NCBI GenBank assembly: GCA_959347315.1
Contig: OY365817.1
Span: forward strand, 2,700,295 to 2,764,294
Direction: 5' to 3'
Source of the DNA: Bimastos eiseni
Taxonomy: Eukaryota > Annelida > Clitellata > Crassiclitellata > Lumbricidae
DNA length: 64,000 nt
The notes below the pieces were generated by a model. The model saw only the letters and a program-made list of their open reading frames with translations. It did no database searches and was not told where the DNA came from. Made by a program: the position numbers and the translations under genes. Below are positions 21,065 to 62,199 of the stretch, piece by piece. Within the stretch, counting starts at the first letter, position 1, and each line of letters opens with the position of its first letter.

Positions 21065-21180
21065 AGGCATGTGCATGGTAAGGATTGTCTACCACCAAGG
21101 TAATGGTTGTCCATTTGAAAGGTGAAAATTGTCTACCTGCAGGTAAACATTGTTTACCTGCATGGTAAAGATTGTCTACC
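21065..21180. repeat. 21-22-bp repeat that copies the ACE copy B exon 3 donor
   Basis: In gene orientation the authentic junction CCAG|GTAGACAATC is followed by GCAG|GTAAACAATG, GCAG|GTAGACAATT and, further on, GGTG|GTAGACAATC. Spacing is 22 and 21 bp for the first three. Confidence 0.7.
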
Positions 21181-21285
21181 TGGATTCTGTGAGATGCAGC
21201 TTTCATTTCCAGATGCTGTATCTGATCCACCCTTGCAGAACAGCTGTGCTGTAGATTCTAGTCATATTTCTCTACAGATCGTCCA
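21180..21285 (-). pseudogene. ACE copy B exon 3, with nonsense codon and frameshift
   Basis: Homologous to copy A exon 3. After a probable gtgcag acceptor comes DDL, then TAG where copy A has an Arg codon, then RNMTRIYSTA. The frame is then lost by a net 2-nt deletion; the ...GNESCISQNPG end is in another frame. Neither frame reads through. Skipping the exon would also break the phase (0 versus 1). Confidence 0.8.
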
Positions 21286-24292: not shown

Positions 24293-24703
24293 TTACGGGT
24301 GGACTCCCGAACCTTGGAAGTTGGAAGGAGGGCAATATCAAAATACGTATTTTTTATTGTAATAAATAAGCTGTAGGTGTAGTTTTGTAGTTACAAGAGA
24401 TCTCCTGAAATGCATAACGAAGAACACACCAGAACGAATAGAACATAATAATAATAATCAACTATCTTCGTTTAATTTCAAACTGAAAAGTGGACTCGGG
24501 TGGACTTACGGGTGGACTCCCGAACCTTGGAAGTTGGAAGGAGGGCAATATCAAAATACGTATTTTTTATTGTAATAAATAAGCTGTAGGTGTAGTTTTG
24601 TAGTTACAAGAGATCTCCTGAAATGCATAACGAAGAACACACCAGAACGAATAGAACATAATAATAATAATCAACTATCTTCGTTTAATTTCAAACTGAA
24701 AAG
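24293..24703. repeat. Perfect 213-bp tandem duplication
   Basis: The block beginning ttacgggtggactcccgaac at 24293 repeats at 24506. The shared 198-201 bp appear identical base for base, so the duplication is very recent or an assembly artefact. Confidence 0.88.
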
Positions 24704-24899
24704 TCGCATTTTGATTGCAAGTACAGTATGAACCAATGATGACAAGTTATTACAGGAGTCGAATTCAGCCATCTTGAAAGTAGTTCATCATGTTATACAT
24801 GATACATCTAATTTAGCCAACTGCGCCATCCAGCCAATAAATGATGTTCTTTATTATGTCGTGTGTGCAATCTTCAACCTTTGAGGGAGGACATTTGCA

Positions 24900-25400: not shown

Positions 25401-25756
25401 ACAACTGAAAAGGTTGAATAAAAATAATTATTGAGTCAATATTTTTTTGATAAATTCGTTTTAATGAGTCAACCTCGTCTATTAAATCCTTACAAATGTC
25501 GACAGAGAAACTTTCAAAAATGTTTTCACAAATGCAGTTATAATCTTATTGGAGAAACTTCCAAAAAAATTCAAATTTGTTGCAAAGACTGCAACAAAAC
25601 GTTTTTTTAAGTCCAATTACTATGGAATGAAAAATCAGATAAATTATTCCATCCCTGAACTCATCTCTTGCAGACTTTACAAGTAAAACTGTTTCAACAA
25701 CTGCAGTTTGTGGATGTTTGTAGGATTAAATTTTTTCAGTCGCTTACTCAGTCGAG

Positions 25757-26272
25757 AAGGTCAACACGGGTGACGCAAGAACGTCGCTTCCTCAGCCGGG
25801 AAGGTAGACAAGGGGGATGCAAAAACGTCGCATCCTCAACGGGGAAGGTCGACACTGGGGACGCAAGGACGTCGCTTCCTAAGCCGGGAAGGTCGACACC
25901 GGTGACGCAAGGACGTCGCATCCTCAGCCGGGAAGGTCGACACTGTTGAAGCAAGGACGGCGTTTCCTCAGCCGGGAAGGTCGTCACTGGTGACGCAAGG
26001 ACGTCGATTCCTCAACCGGGAAGGTCGACACTGGGGACGCAAGGACGTCGATTCCTCAGTCGGGAAGGTCGACACGGGTGACGCAAGGTCGTCGCTTCCT
26101 CTGCCGGGAAGGTCGACACCGGTGACGCAAGGAGGTCGCTTCTTCAGCCGGGAAGGTCGACACTGGTGACGCAAAGAAGTCGCTTACTCAACCGGGAAGG
26201 TCGACACGGGTGACGCAAGAACGTCGCTTCCTCAGCCGGGAAGGTCGACACTGGTGACGCAAGGACGCAAGG
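25757..26272. repeat. 44-bp CpG-rich minisatellite, 12 copies
   Basis: Units start at 25759, 25803, 25847, 25891, 25935, 25979, 26023, 26067, 26111, 26155, 26199 and 26243, with no indels. The consensus contains ggtcgacac, gtgacgcaagg and acgtcgcttcctcagccggg, several CpGs and a SalI-type GTCGAC per unit. It splits two hAT remnants. Not CRISPR: no spacers. Confidence 0.95.
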
Positions 26273-29722: not shown

Positions 29723-32700
29723 CTGGAAAGAAAGGCAACAGGAAGTCAAGTCGAATAATAATAGTGATAATAATAATTATATATATTATAATGATAACAA
29801 TTTTCATTTAAATTCAAACTGACAAACCACAGTATAGTTACAAACATAATATGAATTGTTGAAGACAAGTTATTACAGGAGTCAAATTTAACTGTTTGTT
29901 GGCAGCCATGCAAGATGCACATTATGTGATTGATCTGAATTAAAAAACAAATGTCGCCACTTAGCAAAGCAAGGACTAGACAACCTTTTGGGATACAAAA
30001 AACAAGCTTGGTTCCTAATCTCTGTGTGCCAGTGAGTTATACACTACTCTACTAATTTCCCATTGACTTCTGTAGAGAAATTTAGAGTAGTGAAAGACTA
30101 ACTCAAGTAGGTCAATGAAGTCTCAGGAAAAGAACAATGAATCTAATGAAGATAAATGAAAAAATCAACTCATTAATGTACACATCAAAGAAGCCATGGG
30201 AGTGTTCGAAAATCTAGGGGTTAACACACTGGACTGCCTGCCAGTCGAGAGGTTGGGGCGAAATTACCCACCATGGCAAAAATTTGGCCAAGATTTCTGT
30301 TCCACCTCCTAGACAACTCAGCCAAAAATGAGTACACCGATCGTACACTGAAGGTGAAGAGGAGACGTTGAGTAGAGGACTGGCAGCCCTCATATGCTGA
30401 GGCTGAGAAAACGGAGTAGCTAACACTTCATATGAATGGCTACCTCAGATCTATCACCGAGGGACTGCTCATCTTATTCTTCTTCTTCTAAGAAACACAT
30501 AGTTCTGAACTACTTACGTGATGCTGATCATGAGTTGGAATGTCGTTTGAGAGGCAGCTAGAAGCTGAAATGAAATGAAACCATGGTAAGCTATATACAG
30601 CTAATACCAATTAACACATTTATGATCACATCATATTGGAAATTATCATGTTAAAGAATTTCATGCTTTTGGTATAACACCATAAGAAATTTAATGACAT
30701 TCAAAGAATTAAACAACCATCAGGTCCAGTCTAATACATTATAACATCTGTAAGCTGTCGATGGGAATCCGTTGTGCGTGGGCCAACCATTGGAGACTCT
30801 TTTAGCTTACTGTGCACTGTTTTGCAAACAGTTGCGACTATTCGTTAGAAATGACATTTAACATGAGATCAGGTCAGGTCAGCCTTGGATCAATGCCAGG
30901 CGTTTGCTGTGACAGGTCCCTCCTCTTGGAACAGCTACCTACCACCTACTATTATGGGCTAAGCTCAGATAAAGGATTACAACCCTGTATCCTCTTGCTC
31001 TATCAAGGCCCATGCCTCCCATGCTTAAAGCACCTATAAATGGCCTAGAGGCGCTCTATAAAGGCTCAGATACGATATGATGCAATGCATACCTAGGCTG
31101 GGCGTACGTTGGATTTTACTTTTCATCCTGAATGCCGGGATCATTTCAGAGTCGGACTCATCGAGACTTTGCTGTCTGTTCTTTCGGGAAAACGCTCTCT
31201 TCAATGACTTTATTATACCACCGGCTCTGCAACAAAAGGGAAAGTCGATGAGTCATGTAAAGACACACTTACACTTCATGGTCAGAACAACAAGGTTCTC
31301 TGAAATACCGAGATGTTAGACATGTAATGTAATGCACAATTTGCTGACATTTTCTATAATAACAACAGTCTCCCTTTGAAGCTCCACTTCCTTCTTAGAA
31401 CCATTTCTCAGGCAGTCCCCTCTTATTTTAAGACTGTTTCATTTGGTCACACTGACTTTCATAGCCCTCTAAGTAGTCACCTTGAAGAGGCACTAAACAT
31501 AAGTTCTTGTAATGAATGAATTTGTATTCTTATCACTTGAAGGCTTCAATATATTTCCGTGAGGTGCACACTATGATAAATCAGCATTACTTTATAATCA
31601 CTTAACATATGACATTAATAAATGCTAACTGCTAATAACACTGAAACCTTTATTGACCTTATGCTGGCTTGGCTGTTGATACTCGTCTTTGATGCTAATC
31701 GTGAAATTGAAGGACCTCTCGCAGTGGTACTCGACATCCGTGCAACGCGCTGCACGGATCTACCGGAGGAACCTTCCGCTATGTCCCTAGGACACGAAGA
31801 AGGCTTCTGGTAATTCATGCATGGAACCGAAGCTCCAACAATATCTCTAGGATCGGAAGGCTTAAACTGGTGCGTCGTACATGGAAGAGAGGCTCCGATA
31901 TTCCTGGAGCTGGGTTCACGGACTTTGGATGCGACAATATCTCTTGGGTTCGATGATGGGTAATAGAAATGTGACGTTGGTTTCATGGATGATATTTTTT
32001 TTCGATGTGAGTTGGATGTCCTTTCTACGCCTGTGCCATCGACACATACTTCCTCAAAGTCTTCGTGAACGGTTGGAAGCGATGATGGAATGTAAGCAGA
32101 CTTCTCTGGAGGAATGCTGGATGCAACACACACATTAATGTGTTAATTGTATTATTACTATTATTATTACTACTATTATCTTCCTGACCAGTGGCACATT
32201 GAGTATAGAGTTGTCAGTCTGGTCTGGCATCAGCCTATCTAATAGACAGGTAAACATGAAGTAAGATCATAGTAATTGTTTACAGAATTCTAACAATAGC
32301 CCTATGTAACGAAATACCTAAACTACCTGAAGCGACCTTATTCTGTTCTAAGGTACATCTTAGAAATCATTTCAATTGTCATTATTCATTATTTATCCCG
32401 ATGCATTTATGATGTGGTGTCTTGTTGGTTAGGACCAATATGGGTTAGAGCTTCATACAAGGCAGTTACATTGATCAAGCCATTAACTCGAATTTGTTCT
32501 CAATAACTGCATGCTCATAGGATTATGTGAAAATTTCGTAAATTATGTGAAAAATCACATGATCGCATAAACCATGGGTCCTAGTCATCAACAATCATGT
32601 CGTCTGGTCGGTAAACTATAACGCCTATAGGCTAATAATAACCTGGACAGGCCAAGCCAATTATACTTAATGTTGACTGAAATTTACAAACTTTATGCGA

Positions 32701-35700
32701 TAATTTGTGAAAACTTTCCATTTACGAATTTATGAGAAAATCGTCAATTTATGCTAAAAATGCGAAATTGCATAATCGCATAAAACCACGGGGCACTACT
32801 CATGGGACACGAGTTGTGAGGTTAGCATCACTCAACCATCCACTAGATATTCACTATATGAACCAGAGTTTAAATCATAAGCCTAAGGAAAAGACGAGAG
32901 ACAGAAGATCGACAATCTGGAACCAACTTGAGGTCAAGCGCTGATCCACGGTGTGGCTCCTGCTTGAACTGTTCGGTGGCCGCGTTGTAGGGAAGATCGA
33001 ACTCCAATGTGTCCCAGTATTGATCCTTGATCAGCTGCGGATGTTCTGCGTGCATTTCATCGACTACAAGGTATGAAACCTAAACAGAAGAAAAAAATAC
33101 ATGGACGAAAAAAATTACAGACAAAAAACACTCTTAGAAGAAAAAACAACACAGAAAAAACCCAACACAGATGAAATAACAGAGGAAAAACTACAGTGAA
33201 GAAAAATACTATACAGAATAAAAAACCGTGGAAGAAAAAAACTACACTGGTAACGCATCAGAAATTGATTAATATTATCAATAGTAATAGTAATAATAAA
33301 AATAATAATTATTATTATAACACAAGCCACATAATTATAAAAAAATTACACACAGCTTTCTTATATTTACTATGCATACAAGTTAAACAAGCATGAATGT
33401 CAACCAGAAAACATTATCATACATCATCATTGTTATTGCTTTTATTATTATCATTATTGTTATTATTGTTAATATTAGAATATTATTTACAATCGTGAGT
33501 TACCTTTAGGTGACGATCAATTAAGTAATTTATGTCAAAATCATCATCGTCTTCACCAAAAGGATTCAACATAGTTTCTGCGACCTGTACGCATGAAACA
33601 ACTCAATCTTAATGTCTGAACATACAATATATTTTGTGTATGCTCCTCTGTATATATATATATATATATATGTGTATATATATATATATGTATATATATA
33701 TATGTGTATATATATATATGTGTATATATATATATATGTATATATATATATGTGTATATATATATGTGTATACATATATACACATATAATAATAAACATG
33801 TATATATATATATTATATATATGTATTTATAGAATGTACATATTTGTGCATCCATACGTGTATTCATCAAGGTATGGGTGCTTGCAAATACACTTGTATA
33901 TATGCATGTAAGTATGTAATTACTATGTATCTACGGAAGTCTGTTTAGAAGCAGATTTACGTATTTATGTATAGAATAGTATGAAAAAACCAATAATAAT
34001 GGCAATAATACTGATAATAGTTATGCAAACAACAGTAATAATAACAGTAATAATAATAATAAATATACTAATAGTAATAATTTAAAAAATTGTCTGCAGA
34101 AAGGCCCAGAGTTGCTCCCAATGCCACAAGCCATATATGTACTATATGGTGGGTCCTTCTAAAGGCCGAGTTCCCGAAACTAGGCCTGTTCCAAACGGAC
34201 GGCAAGAGGCCAGACCTTGGCAACATTCCATCCCCTGGTCGCACGAAAAGTATTTGACCCATTGAGGACTAGACCGGACCCTCTGGACAAACTATATGAG
34301 CAATAATCTCTAAGTCACTGGGGGAACAAAGCAAAAATTTAAAGATTTAAAAATAATATTAATAATAAGGAGAAGAAAAAGAAGAAGAGAAAAGATAATA
34401 AGAAAACACATCTATTGGTCACTAAAAAAATGGTAACCGCACAATTTTAATAAATATAATAGTAAATAATTACTGTAATTACAATAGCAACACTAACAAT
34501 AGTAAAAATATTAATAATACAAAGAATAAATCAATTCAAATGGCAATAATAAATGGTAATGAAAATAATTAAATAGATAACTGCAACTGTAGCAAAACAC
34601 TGAGCAATAACAATGCTAATGGCAGCTATAAGATGCCCTTTACCTTCAGCCAATGGCAGTCACAAGATGCCCTTTACCTTCAGGTAATGGCAGTCACAAG
34701 ATGCCCTTCACCTTCAGCCAATGGCAGCTATAAGATGCCCTTTACCTTCAGCCAATGACGGTTATAGAATGCCCTTTACCTTCAGGTAATGGCAGTCACA
34801 AGATGCCCTTCACCTTCAGGTAATGGCAGTCACAAGATGCCCTTTACCTTCAGCCAATGACGGTTATAGGATGCCCTTTACCTTAAGCCAGCCAATGTAG
34901 AAGACGAACTGAAGGAAGGTGAAGAATGGAAAGTACATGTCTCCCAGCTGACCATTGTCCAGATACTGGCGACCCATCAGACAGGACAGGAAAAACGTAT
35001 ACACAGCCAATGTCACAACCTTAAAGAAATGTCACAGGCATATGATGTCACAATATTTAAGGGAATAAGTTAATGAGTAAGCAAGCTAGTGAGTAAGTGG
35101 ACGAGTGAGCAGATAAGCAATTGAATAAACAAGCAAGTAATTGCATGGTCTGAAGTCAATTCCAACAAATAGCATGGCATATAGACTGTAATAATCAGAA
35201 ATACATACAAGAACAAACCCATGCAACAACACAAACAAATGCATTAGCACCGACCTCCTCTCCATGCTTGCATATAATTCAAAATATGCGCATTAATCTT
35301 CAAGACTCAGTGGGTCTTTGCCCCGATATATCTGGTCGATTTAATACTTTGATCTCATTCAGTTTCCTCCCTCCGTCCGCTTCGTTTGTTCAATAGACTT
35401 GACCACTTGGCTCTTTGTACTAGAACTGCTATGGCTCAAATTTCTATACTTTGTTTCAAATGGTCCCTCTCTCTGGAATTTGAGCCTATACACAACTGCG
35501 CCTTAACCTTCTGTTCGCTCTACAATTCTAAACTGGCAGTGTCTCGTCTTTCTCGCTTGTCTCAAAACCCGATTCTTCTCGCAGTGCTTCTGAATGCTTC
35601 ACCCTACTAGAGGCACTTTACAAAAGCTCAAATACAAAACGATACGATACAATAAACACACAAACAAACAGCAAGACACACAGAGCCACAAACATACGCA

Positions 35701-38700
35701 CAGACACACCCTCGCAACTGACCTGTGTATAGACGAGAGGAATGTTTATCCAGTCGAAATTGAACAACTGAAACGATCGCGTGCGAAAGTCGTTTAGTTC
35801 CTAAACAGAAATCAGACGGAATACAAAACAACGCAGCAAACATCCGCTACGTATCATTTTCTACCAGAGGTATCAACGTTTACTTGGGATTGAGGAAAAA
35901 CTGATATTAGGAAGAGGATATTTGTCTGGGGGTCAGGCATCAGTTTTGTAGTTTGTTGGAAACAGATAATTATTATTGCTATTAGAAATATAACAGAATA
36001 CAATACAACTGTATTTAAAATAATATGATACGATTGTATTTAAAATAATATGATATGATTGTATTTAAAATAATATGATACGATTGTATTTAAAATAATA
36101 TGATACGATTGTATTTAAAATAATATGATACGATTGTATTTGATATTGCCCTCCTTCCAAAGTTCAGTACACAACAGAACATTAGGCAACTGTTGAGTGA
36201 AGGATTTGTTCGAGGTTGCTACATAGTGATCTAGTGCATAAAAAAATTATATAGCGCCATGATGAAAACATTATTATGATGCATTAGGTCATTTATAAAG
36301 TGCTTCTCACAGCTCAGGTCCTGCAGAAGCATTCCCAGCGCTATGTACCCTTAGAGAAAAGAAAGGTTTCAAGGTGACAGAAACAGATGGGGATTTCTAA
36401 TCGCACAGCATAGAGAAGGAAAAGGACCAGGACTCAACTGTTGTGGTCCTATCACGGGTCACCAAGAGGTCAAGACGATCAGAGAGAAAGCAACGACACG
36501 ACGCAGAGAGAAAACGGAAAATTTGGAACAATATTTTCGAGCAAGACCCGGCCGAGACAAGAACGATTTGCTCGTGAGCGTACGTCGATGAGTGTCTTGA
36601 CGGCGAAGTCGTCCTTGATTCGTCCCTCTGTCCTGGCCCTCATGACGAGTTCTGAGGCCCAAATGAGTGGAACAAAGAACTTGTTGTATGGCGTCTTCAG
36701 ATTCTCCAATATCTCCTCCTCATTCAGAAGCATCAGACCTAAAACATTCGTTCCGTTGATATTAAGATTCAGTGATTCAGTGAAGTTTACTTGTAATGCA
36801 ACTGTGGGCAACTTTACAATGATCATTACTTATATAGTATTATAATTAACCTTGATGCTATCATTATAGTCATCACTATTATTACAATGATAACAATTTA
36901 TTAATACTATTGGTGCTACCATAACTACTATAATCATGAATCCACGATAATCAATTAATGTCATAATAAAACTGACTCATTTCACTTCAGCAAGATTATT
37001 TCCCATCCTACGGCAGTTTAAACTAATTTGAAATTTTTCTCAAGTGTGCGTGAAATTAATAATTAAATTATTAATGTAAAAAATATTGGCGACACAGACA
37101 AATTTAAAATGAAGAAAGGGGTGAGGCAAGGGTGCATCCTGTCCCCATTTCTTTTCAACCTGTATGCAGAAAGGCTAACGAGGAGGGCGGAAATGGAAGA
37201 GGCAACTGAAGGAGTAAAGATAGCAGGAAGGATACTGAATAATGTAAAATATGCAGATGACACAACACTACTGGCAGGGAAGAAAACAGATCTGGCAAAA
37301 CTGATAAGAAGACTGAAGAGAGAAAGTGAGAAGGCAGGCCTCAATTTCAACATAAAGAAGACAAAGATAATGATAACAGCTGATTGGAACAATTTCGAGA
37401 TAGACGGAGAGGAAATAGAGGTGGTAACAAGCTTCACGTTCCTGGGATCACTAATAGAAAAAGAGGGAAAATGTGACTCGGACATAAAGAGAAGGGTGGC
37501 AATAGGGAGAGCTGCAATGAACGGATTGGAAAAGATATGGAAAGACAAACATGTGAGCATAGACACACAAAAAAGATTAGTGAGAGCAATGATCTTTCTT
37601 ACAATACGTTATGACTGTGAGACATGGACAATGACAAAGAACATCGAGAAGAAAATCAAAGCATGTGAAATGTGGATATGGAGGAAGATGCAGAGAATAT
37701 CATGGACGGAGAAGAAGACAAACGAAGAAGTGCGCAGGAAGATTGGAGTCGAGAATGATGAGACGTTACAACAAACAGCGTTGAGAAGGAAGCTGGGGTT
37801 ATTCGGACATGTTATGCGATCAAATGGAATGGAAAAGGAAATGATGCTGGCATGTGGAGGAGGAAGGAAGAAAAGAGGGTGCCCAAGGAAAAATACATGA
37901 AAAAACTGAAATGAGCCTGGAGGAATTAAGAGTTGCAACTTCGGACAAAAAAAACTGGAGAGGATTGGTCATGGCGGTCGCTAGATTTCAAAGAAATAAC
38001 AGCACAAGGTGACAAGGTGAAAGAATATCCAAGCAGATATAACAGCGGTTGACCTGCTATCCACGAGCATGTTTTCGAGTGAAATGCACATTAAAAAATT
38101 GTCTTTTAACGGCCTTAATTGGTTGGTTGGTTGGTTAGCAGCAGTTTAACGATACTGTGTGATAACTAAGATCATTAGCATTGCTCTCCTCATTTATCCA
38201 GGCTTGGGACACGCACTGCTAGAGTGCCCACAGTGGCTTTAGTATAGAGAAAATATGGTATACAATGAAATCATCAATGAAATGACCATATTATAACATC
38301 GAAGAGACCGTTTAAAAGGTGTTCAAGGTGACCACGCTAACTGATCATATACCATATCCCACAAAAACAACTAACCGGCCTCAGTCATGTGTTTCCAAGT
38401 GGGAAACCGCTTCTTAACGGGTGGACTGATGGACGACATAGTGATGACATACGACAGACACATGTATCGCATGATGGTCCTTCGCATCAGTCGCGCCCTA
38501 TCGTCATGGCCCCTGAGGGACGCCGTGACGAACATAGCGGTCCGACCGGGCCATGGAAGCATCCGGAACTTCTCCCACCAACGACTGGCGACGTGGTTGA
38601 CGTAGAAGCCGAGGACGAACGCCACCGGAATGAGGTTACTGAACTGCGAACAGTAAGCGGATAGCTTCTCGAAGTATCTGAAATCGGTAAGGAACGCGGA

Positions 38701-41700
38701 TGTGTATGTCGATGGAACTTGGAAATCATTTAGTGGTTGCTTTGATGAGAGACAACGACTTAAAGATTTTGATCACCAGCTACCTTTCTGGTTTACACGA
38801 CTGCCTGCATTTTGGCTGTGGCAATCCCAAGCTAGGATAGAGAAGAAGGACGATGCTGATGATCTTTGTTATCACACGGTATTGCTAAGCTAAAACGACT
38901 ACTAGACGGTGCAACTCCCAAAGCCTGAATGAAAGAGGCAACACCAATTAGACTTAAACTGTGATATCCATCTGGCTTCCAGCTGAAGGCCTTTCTGATG
39001 TATGGTTAAAGATCTTCTGGTTGTTACCTAACACTTCAATGAAGAGGTTGTACTTACTACACGTAAGCCATTTGGAACCAATGAGTGAGTGATTGAGAGT
39101 TTGTGTGAGCGTGCAAGCGAGCAATTTGAGTGAGAGAGTGCTCATCATTAGGGCATTAAAGACCTTTCTGACCTCTAGCCTGTAACAACAAAGGGTTCGA
39201 ATGGGTCTTTCTTCTCAGTTGCTTTAATTGAAATATGTTGTCTTTATTTTTATATTGTGTTTATGGGAACAATAGATATTATGGTTATGGTTATAACCTA
39301 TCTAGTCTCCATTTAGAGCCCGTTTCATTTTGCCAAGGTCAGGTCGAGTGTCTCGAGTTAGGTATGTAGACATGGCCTACTTGAATACAGTTGTATTACG
39401 TTACCAGGAAGGATGCAAATATTACATTTACACCAGGATACATACATTAAGCCTTACTCTTTTTGAGTAGCTGTCAGCGCACAACGATATACGAAACTTA
39501 GACAGAAGTAGGCCACAGCAAAGACGATGAACTCCTTCCACAGGATCTTGTAAATACTTCCCCTCCATCTACAAAAGAAAACTATCTCTACAACAATCAA
39601 CCCAACATCAACAAGGGGATGGAATGAGACAATACTATGACACTAGTAGTTTATTCTGTTCACATGCTAGCTGCACTCTGGCAGTGTCCGTCTCAATAGT
39701 GGATAATGGAGGAGGGCTACACTGATGATCTTTGTTATCACGCAGTGCCTTTGAACTGAAACTGCTATTACTAGACACTGGCTTTTTTAGTACTTGCTGG
39801 TCGTTATAAGAGTTAAATAAACGTTTCAATCGCTGGTCTGCCACAACGTGTACTGTGGCAATGCCTGTTCCAAGCCTGGATTTGGTCAGTTATCGGTGAG
39901 TAAACGAGGAAGAGCGCAACACTAATCAACTGCGCTCATCAACTGCGTTATGAAACAGTGTCATCAAACACCAACTGCATGAGTATCCGACAATATTGGC
40001 CACCACTTAAGTACTAGGATACAATCTTGTTCGCGGCGATGAAATATGGACACAATCCGTTGCTATTCACCTAACACTGTCACATTTAGATACCTTTAAA
40101 TCGTCACTTTTCGCAGATATATAACTGCTAATTTCCTTCAGTCGGTAAGCGATTATCTACACTAATTGATCACTTATTACTTGCATGCAAGAAAACAATG
40201 ACATATCAAATTACTAATTAAAATATGTGCAGAAAAAGGTGAATTATACTGTTACAAGTATATTATCTATTTAAGATATCTATACTGAGGTGTATAGCAT
40301 ACTAATGATAACAAATATGGATGGATTATCTAAAATTAATAAGTGCAAGTAAATAGTGTTTCAATTCGCTTTCTTCCCTTCCAGCGAACGGACCAACATT
40401 CAGATTTCGCCTCCTTCCCTAACTATTGACTGACTTTTTAACTGTAAATCTAATCTACAGAAATGACTCAGATTTCATTTGACTTCTTCTTATTATTTTG
40501 AACAGAAAGACCATCCATTACAAATTGCAAGAGTCAACGAAAACAGCCAACAATGCTAAAACTCCGTAGGGTATAAACCCAACACACGACACTAAAATTG
40601 CCAGTCAGCATTTATCTACAAATTTCGCGCGCAATATGATATCAGCACGTGCGATTCAGCCGAATACAGCAGCCTAGCGCCTGTAAATCGATCGTCGCTG
40701 CACTCACAGCTTGCATTAAATGTATCCTGACTCTGATAGATATACAGTAACGATTAATACGACTTAAACTATGCAATGTCCAAAATACGTTCACATAGTG
40801 GAATCATGTTCAATAATACATTATGTAAGTTCAATGTCTAAACTTGTAACATTGTTAAGGGAACTAAATATGGTTACTGCAGTTGCATACTGGATAGTGG
40901 AAAAACCATTTCATAAACTATTTTTAAACACCAACAATTGGACACAACATATTAATTGGATTGTTTTGTGATGATGAATGTATGGCTTTATTGTTGATAC
41001 TTTAGTTGTTAAGTCGATATTAATTCGTTTATTTTGTAATCCTGAATGTCTGAATTTATTATTATTCTTTTGGTTGTTCTGTTGATTTGGATTATTGAAT
41101 ATTGTCTATAATCCAATACTATAAATGATGTAATGGTCATATTGAATATTACTTGTCAACATTATATGGATAGTTTGACTTTGATGTTATGAAATTGTTT
41201 TGATGCTCTGTAAATAAGATGGGGAAAAACCTTCATGGAAAAAAACTGAACCAAAAAAAGAACCGATATGGTCAAAAAAGAGCCTTCATGAACAAAAAGA
41301 GGCTATATGACCACATGAATAAATTTTGCATATGTATATGTGTACATTGTATGTGTATATATATACATTTATACAATGTGTATGTTTATATATGTAGGAA
41401 TAAAATATAAAAATCATTTATATGTTATGAAATATCTACAACAACCACATGTCGAATATTGCTGTCTCAGCAACCAGTCATGCAGAAATGGAATCAATAA
41501 CAACACAAAAGGAAGAAAGAAAACAGAAAGACTAAAGAAAGAAAGACAACAAAAAGATAAAGGATTAAAACTATATACAAAATCGAACTGAAATGTAACA
41601 AATTCTGTAGACGTCAACAGTCTGTGTTGCTATAAGATGTCGTTAAACTATTGAACAATAAAATAATCGTTGGTAATCCATTTCGAAAGATGCGGCTCCT

Positions 41701-60273: not shown

Positions 60274-62199
60274 CTAAAACGAATACGGACTTATAATTCA
60301 TTCAATGGTTTCACACTGATATCCACTGCAAAGTATTTCATTATCATGCTATTCTCACTCTTTTGATTTAACTGGTGTGCTTATTCTTAAGACTTATTTT
60401 TCTGTGGGGCTTTTCGCATTGGGAGTGCCTCTGATTAGTAGGTTGTACTGGGAGAGGTGCTATAGAAATATAGAAATACAATTTTCTGCAACCCTTAAAC
60501 CAGCAATTATTCTAATATTCTTTTTATGGTTTTCAGTTTTTTCCAAACAGCAAAGCAATAACTCTCTTCTCCTGAACCCATCCAAAACTCAGTTTCCAGT
60601 GTAGAAATACACTTGTTGGCGGACATATTCCCTCATGTCGCCTTTTCACTTCATGTTCAAACAAATATACTCACTTTCTGCCAGCTGCTCAAGTCTGAGA
60701 GTGCCTTAGAGTAAGTTACTTGAAAGGTGCTATATAAAGTCTTGGAATGAATGAATGAATACTTGTTCTAATATTAATCAACTCATTATCACGCCATCGT
60801 CCACCGCCCTTACTGCTCTAATAATAATTTTGGCTCAATTTTTAACCGACAAGCTGCAATATGATTACAAACATAGTATTTACTTTTTAATTTATTCTGA
60901 ACTTTGATATCGCCCTTCTTCCAAGATTTTTGTTCAGAAGTAAACGCGCCTCGACGGCGCAATTGCAGTTGTACTGCAGAGCAATTGTGCACGAAGGACT
61001 TGCTCCAGATCCCTTCACAGTGACACCTCAGACAAGGGTAGAATCCGCTTGCTCAGTGCACACTGAGAGTTACGGGCCGAACAGTCTAACCAATCGGCCA
61101 CCATGCCACACAAATATTGTACAGTATGATATTATATAATAGCCCATTGCTAATATATCTCAAGGGTGACTGATAGGAGCATGGATGCTAGCAAGGGATG
61201 GCGAGATAGATCCGAATATGAGAAGTTTTCTGGCCGAAGTTGTGTCTAGAGGTGTGGAGAGAATATACAAAGCCACTGACGTAGGATTAGACTGGTGTGG
61301 TTGGTTCTTGTCAGGTCTACACAGGGTTTGTCATTTGAGTAACACCCTTCGAGGTAATTGAGGGTCATTCACCAAGCTGACTGTTTTGAGTCACTTGACC
61401 AATGGTATATAAAGATTCGGTGTTCTACCTGGTTGAAGCCTATTTGTATGAGGAGATGAAGTCATGTCGTTTCTTTCGAAAAGATATCCTCTCCTTTACT
61501 TGCTTGTAAATAAGGCTATCATATTATATTCATATTAGGGACATTATTTTGTTATCTACATTAGGGACTCATCTTACAATTAACAGATTATAACAAGTTA
61601 TTACAGGAGTCAAATTAACTGTTGGCAGCCACACAAGGCGACCATCACATGACACATAATAGCATAATACTCAGTCTTTCAATGATTTCTACACCCAATT
61701 AAACTGCCCCTTTTCCAAACAGTTTCAATGGTTTCAACACCCAATTAAATTGCCCCTTTTTTCATGCAGTTTCAATGGTTTCCACGCCCAATTAAATTAC
61801 CCATTTTTTCACACAGTTTCAATAGCTTCCACTTTCCACACCCAATAAAATTGCTCCTTATGTCAAACAGTTTCAATGATTTTCACAACTAATTAAATTA
61901 CTCCTTTTTTAAGCAACTTCAACAGCTTCCACAACCAAGTTTAAAATGCTCCTGTTGTCATGCAGTTTAATTGGTTTCCACATCCAATTAAATTGCGGTT
62001 TTTTTCACACCTCATGTAAGTTGTGTCCACACCAAATTAAACTGCCACACTTTTTCAGGCAACTCAATAGGAGAAATTTTGAGCGTTATTAGCCACTTAC
62101 GTTTTCGTAACGACTCTCGTTCCATTGCGGATGACGGTGGAAGTAGACGTTGACGTTCCATAGGATGGAGCACCTGACGAAGCGGACATGAAGTTGAAC
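60171..62199 (-). CDS. DNAJB6/DNAJB2-like co-chaperone, last two exons (5' part not found)
   Basis: Exons 62101-62199 and 60171-60273 join in phase (AC|G = Thr) and end in TAA. The first encodes a Ser/Thr-rich stretch GTSTSTSTVIRNGTRVVTKT; the second VVENGVATVTVEENGVLKSK and a short tail ...QQQAIKDKA. This matches the C-terminal layout of class B DnaJ proteins of the DNAJB6 type (S/T-rich region, then NG-x-ITTKRIVENG, then VEEDGQLKS). In that family the S/T-rich segment binds aggregation-prone clients and the missing J domain recruits Hsp70. Upstream exons, including the J domain, were not recognised in 62200-64000 and probably lie to the right. Confidence 0.72.
60835..61125 (-). repeat. SINE with a tRNA-like head
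   Basis: On the minus strand the head ggtggccgattggttagact...cggcccgtaactctcagtg resembles a Ser/Leu-type tRNA with A-box character. The body has gtgcacaattgctctgcagt and the tail cttggaagaagggcgatatc. The same tail word is at 24315, 24530 and 36150. Confidence 0.6.
61685..62060. repeat. ~45-bp degenerate minisatellite in the DnaJ-like intron
   Basis: About eight units built on 'cagtttcaatggtttccaca' + 'cccaattaaattgcccc', starting about 40 nt inside the intron from the penultimate exon's donor. Confidence 0.85.
62101..62199 (-). CDS. DnaJ-like penultimate exon (S/T-rich)
   Basis: 99 nt, acceptor ttcatccag, donor AAAAC|GTAAGT. Encodes FNFMSASSGAPSYGTSTSTS and TVIRNGTRVVTKT. Confidence 0.72.

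Follow-up and report, generated by a model that had tools for sequence, protein, structure and literature searches.

A putative ‘mirage’ in an annelid bestrophin gene: a 34-bp tandem array that repeats a 5' splice site

Minisatellite-like duplications of exon-intron boundaries have been described in the globin genes of amphioxus, where they are called ‘mirages’ after earlier work on Adh3 (PMC3087553). Troponin C has been cited as a further mirage, a repeat in PGBD5 abuts a 5' splice site (PMC3902484), and one amphioxus gene has six mirage units on one haplotype and three on the other (PMC3087553, PMC3902484). According to the globin paper, the Adh3 data and reverse transcription PCR of globins suggest that mirages leave regular splicing undisturbed, though many of their units hold AG/GT signals, and mirages are proposed as a possible source of new introns (PMC3087553). 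In this paper, we describe a comparable array in a 64,000-nucleotide stretch of the annelid Bimastos eiseni (contig OY365817.1, positions 2,700,295 to 2,764,294; hereafter, the window). On its minus strand, 34-bp units are repeated at the end of a bestrophin exon, and the authentic splice site sits inside one terminal unit of the tandem array, as in a mirage. All array results are based on the sequence of one assembly (660 Mb, 118 contigs).

Judged by anatomy, the bestrophin array is closest to the mirages. As in the amphioxus genes (Adh3, troponin C, the globins BflGb6/BflGb9 and PGBD5), a tandem array appears to duplicate a boundary and carries splice signals in its extra units, and the boundary duplicated in the BflGb9 mirage is likewise the 3' one of an exon (PMC3087553). 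The bestrophin array differs from the mirages in its lineage (annelid), its gene (bestrophin) and the very short exonic part of its unit. Moreover, the donor is kept in all eight units, whereas AG/GT signals are reported in many, not all, of the amphioxus units (PMC3087553).

Two human genes offer further comparisons, both as cited in other work. The minisatellite of IFI6/G1P3 (6-16; Turri et al. 1995) has multiple splice donors, and unlike what we propose for bestrophin, those of two downstream repeat units are reported to be used, giving isoforms (PMC4526556). In BEST1, 203 nt are reportedly retained in the variant c.867+97G>A, which brings in a premature stop; the normal product is made as well (PMC12370765). 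This variant has the same intron position and, as decoy use would here, combines missplicing downstream of that donor with a premature stop, but it is a disease point variant with no repeat array. Judged by titles and the starts of abstracts, the open literature searched contains no such array in an annelid or in a bestrophin gene. Boundary-duplicating arrays are already known from lancelets, and the bestrophin array seems to be a further case, from a different group of animals; if RNA confirms it, such minisatellites would extend from lancelets to another animal phylum.

Array, donors and premature stop

Tandem Repeats Finder (TRF) gives a period of 34 with 8.0 copies, 85% matches and 0% indels, and also a three-unit period of 102 bp with 92% matches. 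In exact phase, the units start in gene order at 34886, 34852, 34818, 34784, 34750, 34716, 34682 and 34648. This bears out an earlier, model-made reading of the letters (the original prediction), which claimed eight in-phase 34-bp units with the exon donor inside the first; an array does lie in the span that it gave (34610-34890), but the exact-phase limits are others (Table 1). The word AAGGTRAAGGGC is present in all eight units (with A in six and G in two). With one mismatch allowed, it occurs eight times in the window, always inside the array, compared to 0.40 on average across 100 shuffles. The stretch AAGGTAAAGGGCAT is shared without change by units 1, 2, 4, 5, 7 and 8 and differs by one base in units 3 and 6. 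Overall, 11 of the 34 columns vary across the eight units and 10 across units 2-8, whose mean pairwise divergence is 0.129. Mean unit identity is 0.918 at lag 3 versus 0.849 between neighbours (lag 1), and units 3 and 6 are identical (34/34), as expected if three-unit blocks were copied.

The host gene is intact around the array. That is, seven exons of the minus strand, once joined, read through as a single bestrophin frame of 339 residues with no stop, which matches Pfam Bestrophin (PF01062, E 8.6e-132) and solved bestrophins (E down to 7e-119). The GWLK/VAE junction formed at the authentic donor is gapless against the solved bestrophins (alignments inspected: one in one search, five in another) and in 7/7 of the relatives inspected, out of 120 listed (the best 120 of 1890).

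Downstream of this junction, the 9-mer of the real donor is copied exactly in five of the seven decoys, and the other two read GTGAAG, with a spacing of 34 nt throughout. Local strength was scored with a simple frequency matrix for 67 GT sites of the array-holding intron. The array donors take the top eight places (4.01 for six, 3.39 for two; next best, 0.14). Scores for the five other bestrophin donors examined lie between -1.29 and 4.94. Predicted pairing with the U1 5' end is -6.8 kcal/mol for six array donors and -6.9 kcal/mol for two. The original prediction of seven decoys in 34-nt steps was therefore accurate, and their local strength is equal or nearly equal to that of the real donor. 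Since five decoys repeat the 9-mer exactly, this local word is unable to separate the real donor from them. If RNA confirms the array, the locus would be a natural experiment, with eight serial donors of equal or near-equal local strength in an intron whose position also occurs in a gene linked to human disease. The identity of the used donor would then test directly what distinguishes a true 5' splice site beyond its 9-mer.

Use of any decoy (units 2-8) would retain unit 1, whose retention reads WLKVKGIL*, and therefore every decoy product would have a premature stop. A TAA after one retained unit had been foreseen, as had truncation of the channel just before the calcium clasp; in agreement with both, decoy use would, on our gene model, leave untranslated the next coding exon, which holds the EDDDD acidic cluster (the ‘calcium clasp’). 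Given the later junctions, decoy transcripts would be open to nonsense-mediated decay. The unit of IFI6/G1P3 is reportedly 12 nt long and in frame, with repeat donors that extend the open reading frame. The bestrophin array gives no such in-frame extension: its period of 34 is not divisible by three, and the TAA lies in unit 1.

The intron itself is old. In the Bestrophin-1 chain 8d1o_E, taken here as human and numbered from Met1 (the source record gives no species), V239 aligns with the first residue of the 138-nt exon and GWLK ends at residue 289. In the human transcript NM_004183, c.867 is the last exonic base before the intron, as follows from the naming of c.867+97G>A (PMC12370765). Because 867 = 3 x 289, human and Bimastos eiseni share this intron in both place and phase. 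This shared position and phase argues that the array is not an intron gain and grew on an old splice site. The human intron after c.867 is intron 7 of BEST1.

Origin of the array and rival explanations

The array is probably a mirage, a minisatellite that began when an exon-intron boundary was duplicated in tandem at an old, conserved junction, with decoys that are mostly passive. An early duplication would have copied a segment of ~34-38 bp holding the donor, and slippage or unequal exchange would then have grown the array to eight units, partly as three-unit (102 bp) blocks. The extra copies lie in the intron, and the authentic donor, beside a complete exon, is probably the main one used. 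Most likely the array is tolerated and causes low-level unproductive splicing at most. Slippage at a splice site was one of three options offered in the original prediction and is the one that the data support. The exon-side sequence TGGCTTAAG is similar to TGGCTGAAG in the unit, a match that extends to CATTGGCT once a 4-nt gap is allowed. With AAG as the anchor, 11 of 1500 control stretches, drawn at random among the eligible AAG sites of the window outside the array, on both strands, fit the unit as well as the exon end does or better. This likeness lends moderate support to duplication of the junction, for which CATTAGC (unit 8 end) and CATTGGC (exon) could be natural break points.

Several observations weigh against this explanation. 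Without the anchor, 448 of 4000 random 40-mers match a unit equally well (the array itself was included; 40-mers containing N were skipped and not counted apart). The exon's share of the unit is small, with 5 nt in strict phase, 9 nt as delimited by TRF and at most 16 nt with the 4-nt gap. TGGC precedes four of the seven decoys only (units 2, 5, 6 and 8), with TACC before units 3, 4 and 7, and the gapped match depends on a single word, CATTGGCT, found also near the start of the same exon. In classical competition experiments, the acceptor-nearest of several equal U1-bound donors reportedly tends to win, which would predict appreciable decoy use. Finally, 1 of the 10 variable columns falls inside the 14-nt donor word (hypergeometric 0.019). 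With the position left free, this conservation is not significant, as 23% of random placements yield an equally clean 14-nt stretch; selection on the donor words was rejected on this ground (0.23).

Alternatively, an ordinary intronic minisatellite may have grown from intron sequence starting at the donor, with no exon duplicated and the exon-side likeness due to chance. The strict-phase overlap with the exon (TTAAG) includes the AAG of the donor consensus, and the TACC that replaces TGGC before 3/7 decoys also fits such an origin, as does the base rate of donor words. In 264,000 bases (the window together with 20 10-kb stretches taken from chosen round positions on 15 contigs), 46 minisatellites (period 15-100, at least 3 copies, overlapping rows merged) cover 7,410 bases, or 2.8%. 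A donor-like word (score at least 3.39) occurs in 6/46 of their consensuses, including the bestrophin array and one at 21072-21182, against a mean of 2.7 and a maximum of 8 for shuffled units (200 rounds). Minisatellites with donor words are therefore common. Arrays lying across a real donor should be less frequent, but with minisatellites this abundant some overlaps with splice sites are to be expected, which also counts in favour of a mirage. The anchored exon-end match, however, speaks against chance likeness, and we consider this origin unlikely. It is more improbable still that the array is an assembly artefact, or a collapsed or expanded repeat. Two sequence versions of amphioxus PGBD5 do differ in the copy number of such repeats (PMC3902484), but the bestrophin array is only ~273 bp long in a contig of ~29.6 Mb, and its 11 variable columns distinguish all units except the identical units 3 and 6. 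Least credible of all, to the point of being hardly conceivable, are back-up donors that rescue splicing after loss of the real one, a buffering role that the original prediction had allowed. The local strength of the decoys would suit this role, but all seven products carry the in-frame TAA of unit 1, so no decoy can rescue the loss and no working channel would result; this allele contradicts it.

It is also doubtful that the array serves regulated unproductive splicing, in which competition between the decoys and the real donor would tune the amount of channel through the share of transcripts that nonsense-mediated decay removes; unit number or U1/SR-protein levels would set this share. The rank and U1 pairing of the array donors (the eight best of 67) and the unit 1 stop in every decoy product favour such regulation, and aberrant retention is reported in the equivalent human intron (BEST1 c.867+97G>A, PMC12370765). 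On the other hand, the cleanness of the donor words is nominal only, and amphioxus mirages are reported without disturbance of splicing (PMC3087553). A stronger version, in which unit number is a heritable, mutable dial and each added decoy draws in more U1 and sends more transcripts to decay, is a long shot; if true, a fast-evolving minisatellite would set the amount of a chloride channel. TTACCT within TTACCTGAAGGTRA is able to pair with the array's own donors, and if unit number were such a dial, TTACCTGAAGGTRA would be a possible built-in damper.

As an observation in its own right, TTACCTGAAGGTRA directly precedes the donors in units 3, 4 and 7 (34674-34823) and is a near-palindrome, with the donor facing its own complement. 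It contains seven letters of the U1 5' end, part of which TTACCT copies. The RNA of the array is predicted to fold only marginally more stably than shuffled sequence (z -1.82, 5/100 as good). Donors 3, 4 and 8 are predicted to be paired in all three fold settings (unpaired 0.02-0.06 for donor 8), the prediction for donor 6 varies with the setting, and the real donor (unpaired 0.35-0.52) is the most open in 1/3 settings. Concealment of the decoys by RNA structure was rejected, and these predictions were not used as evidence.

An origin from a dispersed satellite was rejected within the range searched. Genome-wide, the exact 12-base word has at least 97 matches (8 in the array), not above the at least 108 for the pattern read backwards, and blastn at E 1e-5 found no second copy of the array in the window or in 28 fetched genome pieces. 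Among these, L004 alone shares 14-mers with the array (six, around the 12-base word); pieces L001-L008 contain this word by construction.

Host gene and other features of the window

Table 1. Coordinates in the window of the array, its donors and the bestrophin gene model.
Feature	Position	Strand	Basis
Array of eight 34-bp units, exact phase	34615-34886	(-)	TRF span 34618-34890
Unit 1, straddling the exon end	34853-34886	(-)	
Authentic 5' splice site GT, AAG/GTAAAG, in unit 1 (donor G at 34881)	34880-34881	(-)	Homologs support junction WLK/VAE
In-frame stop TAA within unit 1 (VKGIL*); all decoys lie downstream	34864-34866	(-)	
Decoy donor, unit 2, AAG/GTAAAG	34846-34847	(-)	
Decoy donor, unit 3, AAG/GTGAAG	34812-34813	(-)	
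Decoy donor, unit 4, AAG/GTAAAG	34778-34779	(-)	
Decoy donor, unit 5, AAG/GTAAAG	34744-34745	(-)	
Decoy donor, unit 6, AAG/GTGAAG	34710-34711	(-)	
Decoy donor, unit 7, AAG/GTAAAG	34676-34677	(-)	
Decoy donor, unit 8, AAG/GTAAAG	34642-34643	(-)	
Unit 8	34615-34648	(-)	
Bestrophin exon	39458-39568	(-)	
Bestrophin exon	38376-38677	(-)	
Bestrophin exon	36584-36738	(-)	
Bestrophin exon	35723-35800	(-)	
Bestrophin coding exon, 138 nt, phase 0, 3' end inside the array	34882-35019	(-)	Gene model and alignment to solved bestrophins
Array-holding intron, ~1.3 kb, matching human BEST1 c.867/868 in position	33585-34881	(-)	
Next bestrophin coding exon, 81 nt, EDDDD acidic cluster	33504-33584	(-)	Gene model
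Bestrophin exon, last modelled, end uncertain	32927-33079	(-)	

The closest proteins by E-value (best 120 of 1890) are those of Lamellibrachia satsuma (67%) and Capitella teleta (67%), followed by two at 64% and 63% and then Lingula anatina (62%). By themselves these matches point to a lophotrochozoan, probably an annelid. The gene model comprises seven exons, without the first coding exon and the 3' part; the label ‘exon 6’ for the exon that ends in the array presumes a single further coding exon upstream of 39568. The last modelled exon has an uncertain end because TT, not GT, comes after 32927. Another tandem array, a (TA)n tract with a 32-bp period and 5.6 copies, lies at 33651-33831, ~65 nt from the intron acceptor AG at 33585, and therefore both ends of the array-holding intron are close to repeats. 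Between two bestrophin exons, on the opposite strand, there is a reverse-transcriptase fragment (Pfam RVT_1, E 2.3e-15) at 37067-37900.

No match was found in 30000-40000 with Rfam at gathering thresholds or for 34590-35060 in a plasmid collection, and ARAGORN found no tRNA. Elsewhere in the window, the consensus of the 22-bp array at 21072-21182 contains the 9-mer AAGGTAAAG, shared with the bestrophin array. It was rejected as a second splice-site array, as no exon was seen there by eye. Its minus strand resembles a reverse-transcriptase fragment, but Pfam gave no match. A 47-bp array at 61677-62007 has the acceptor-like consensus CCCCTTTTTTCAAACAG. In addition, a 44-bp minisatellite at 25739-26267 has 12 copies with no indels, and a 213-bp tandem duplication at 24293-24704 (1.9 copies, 100% matches) is perhaps recent.
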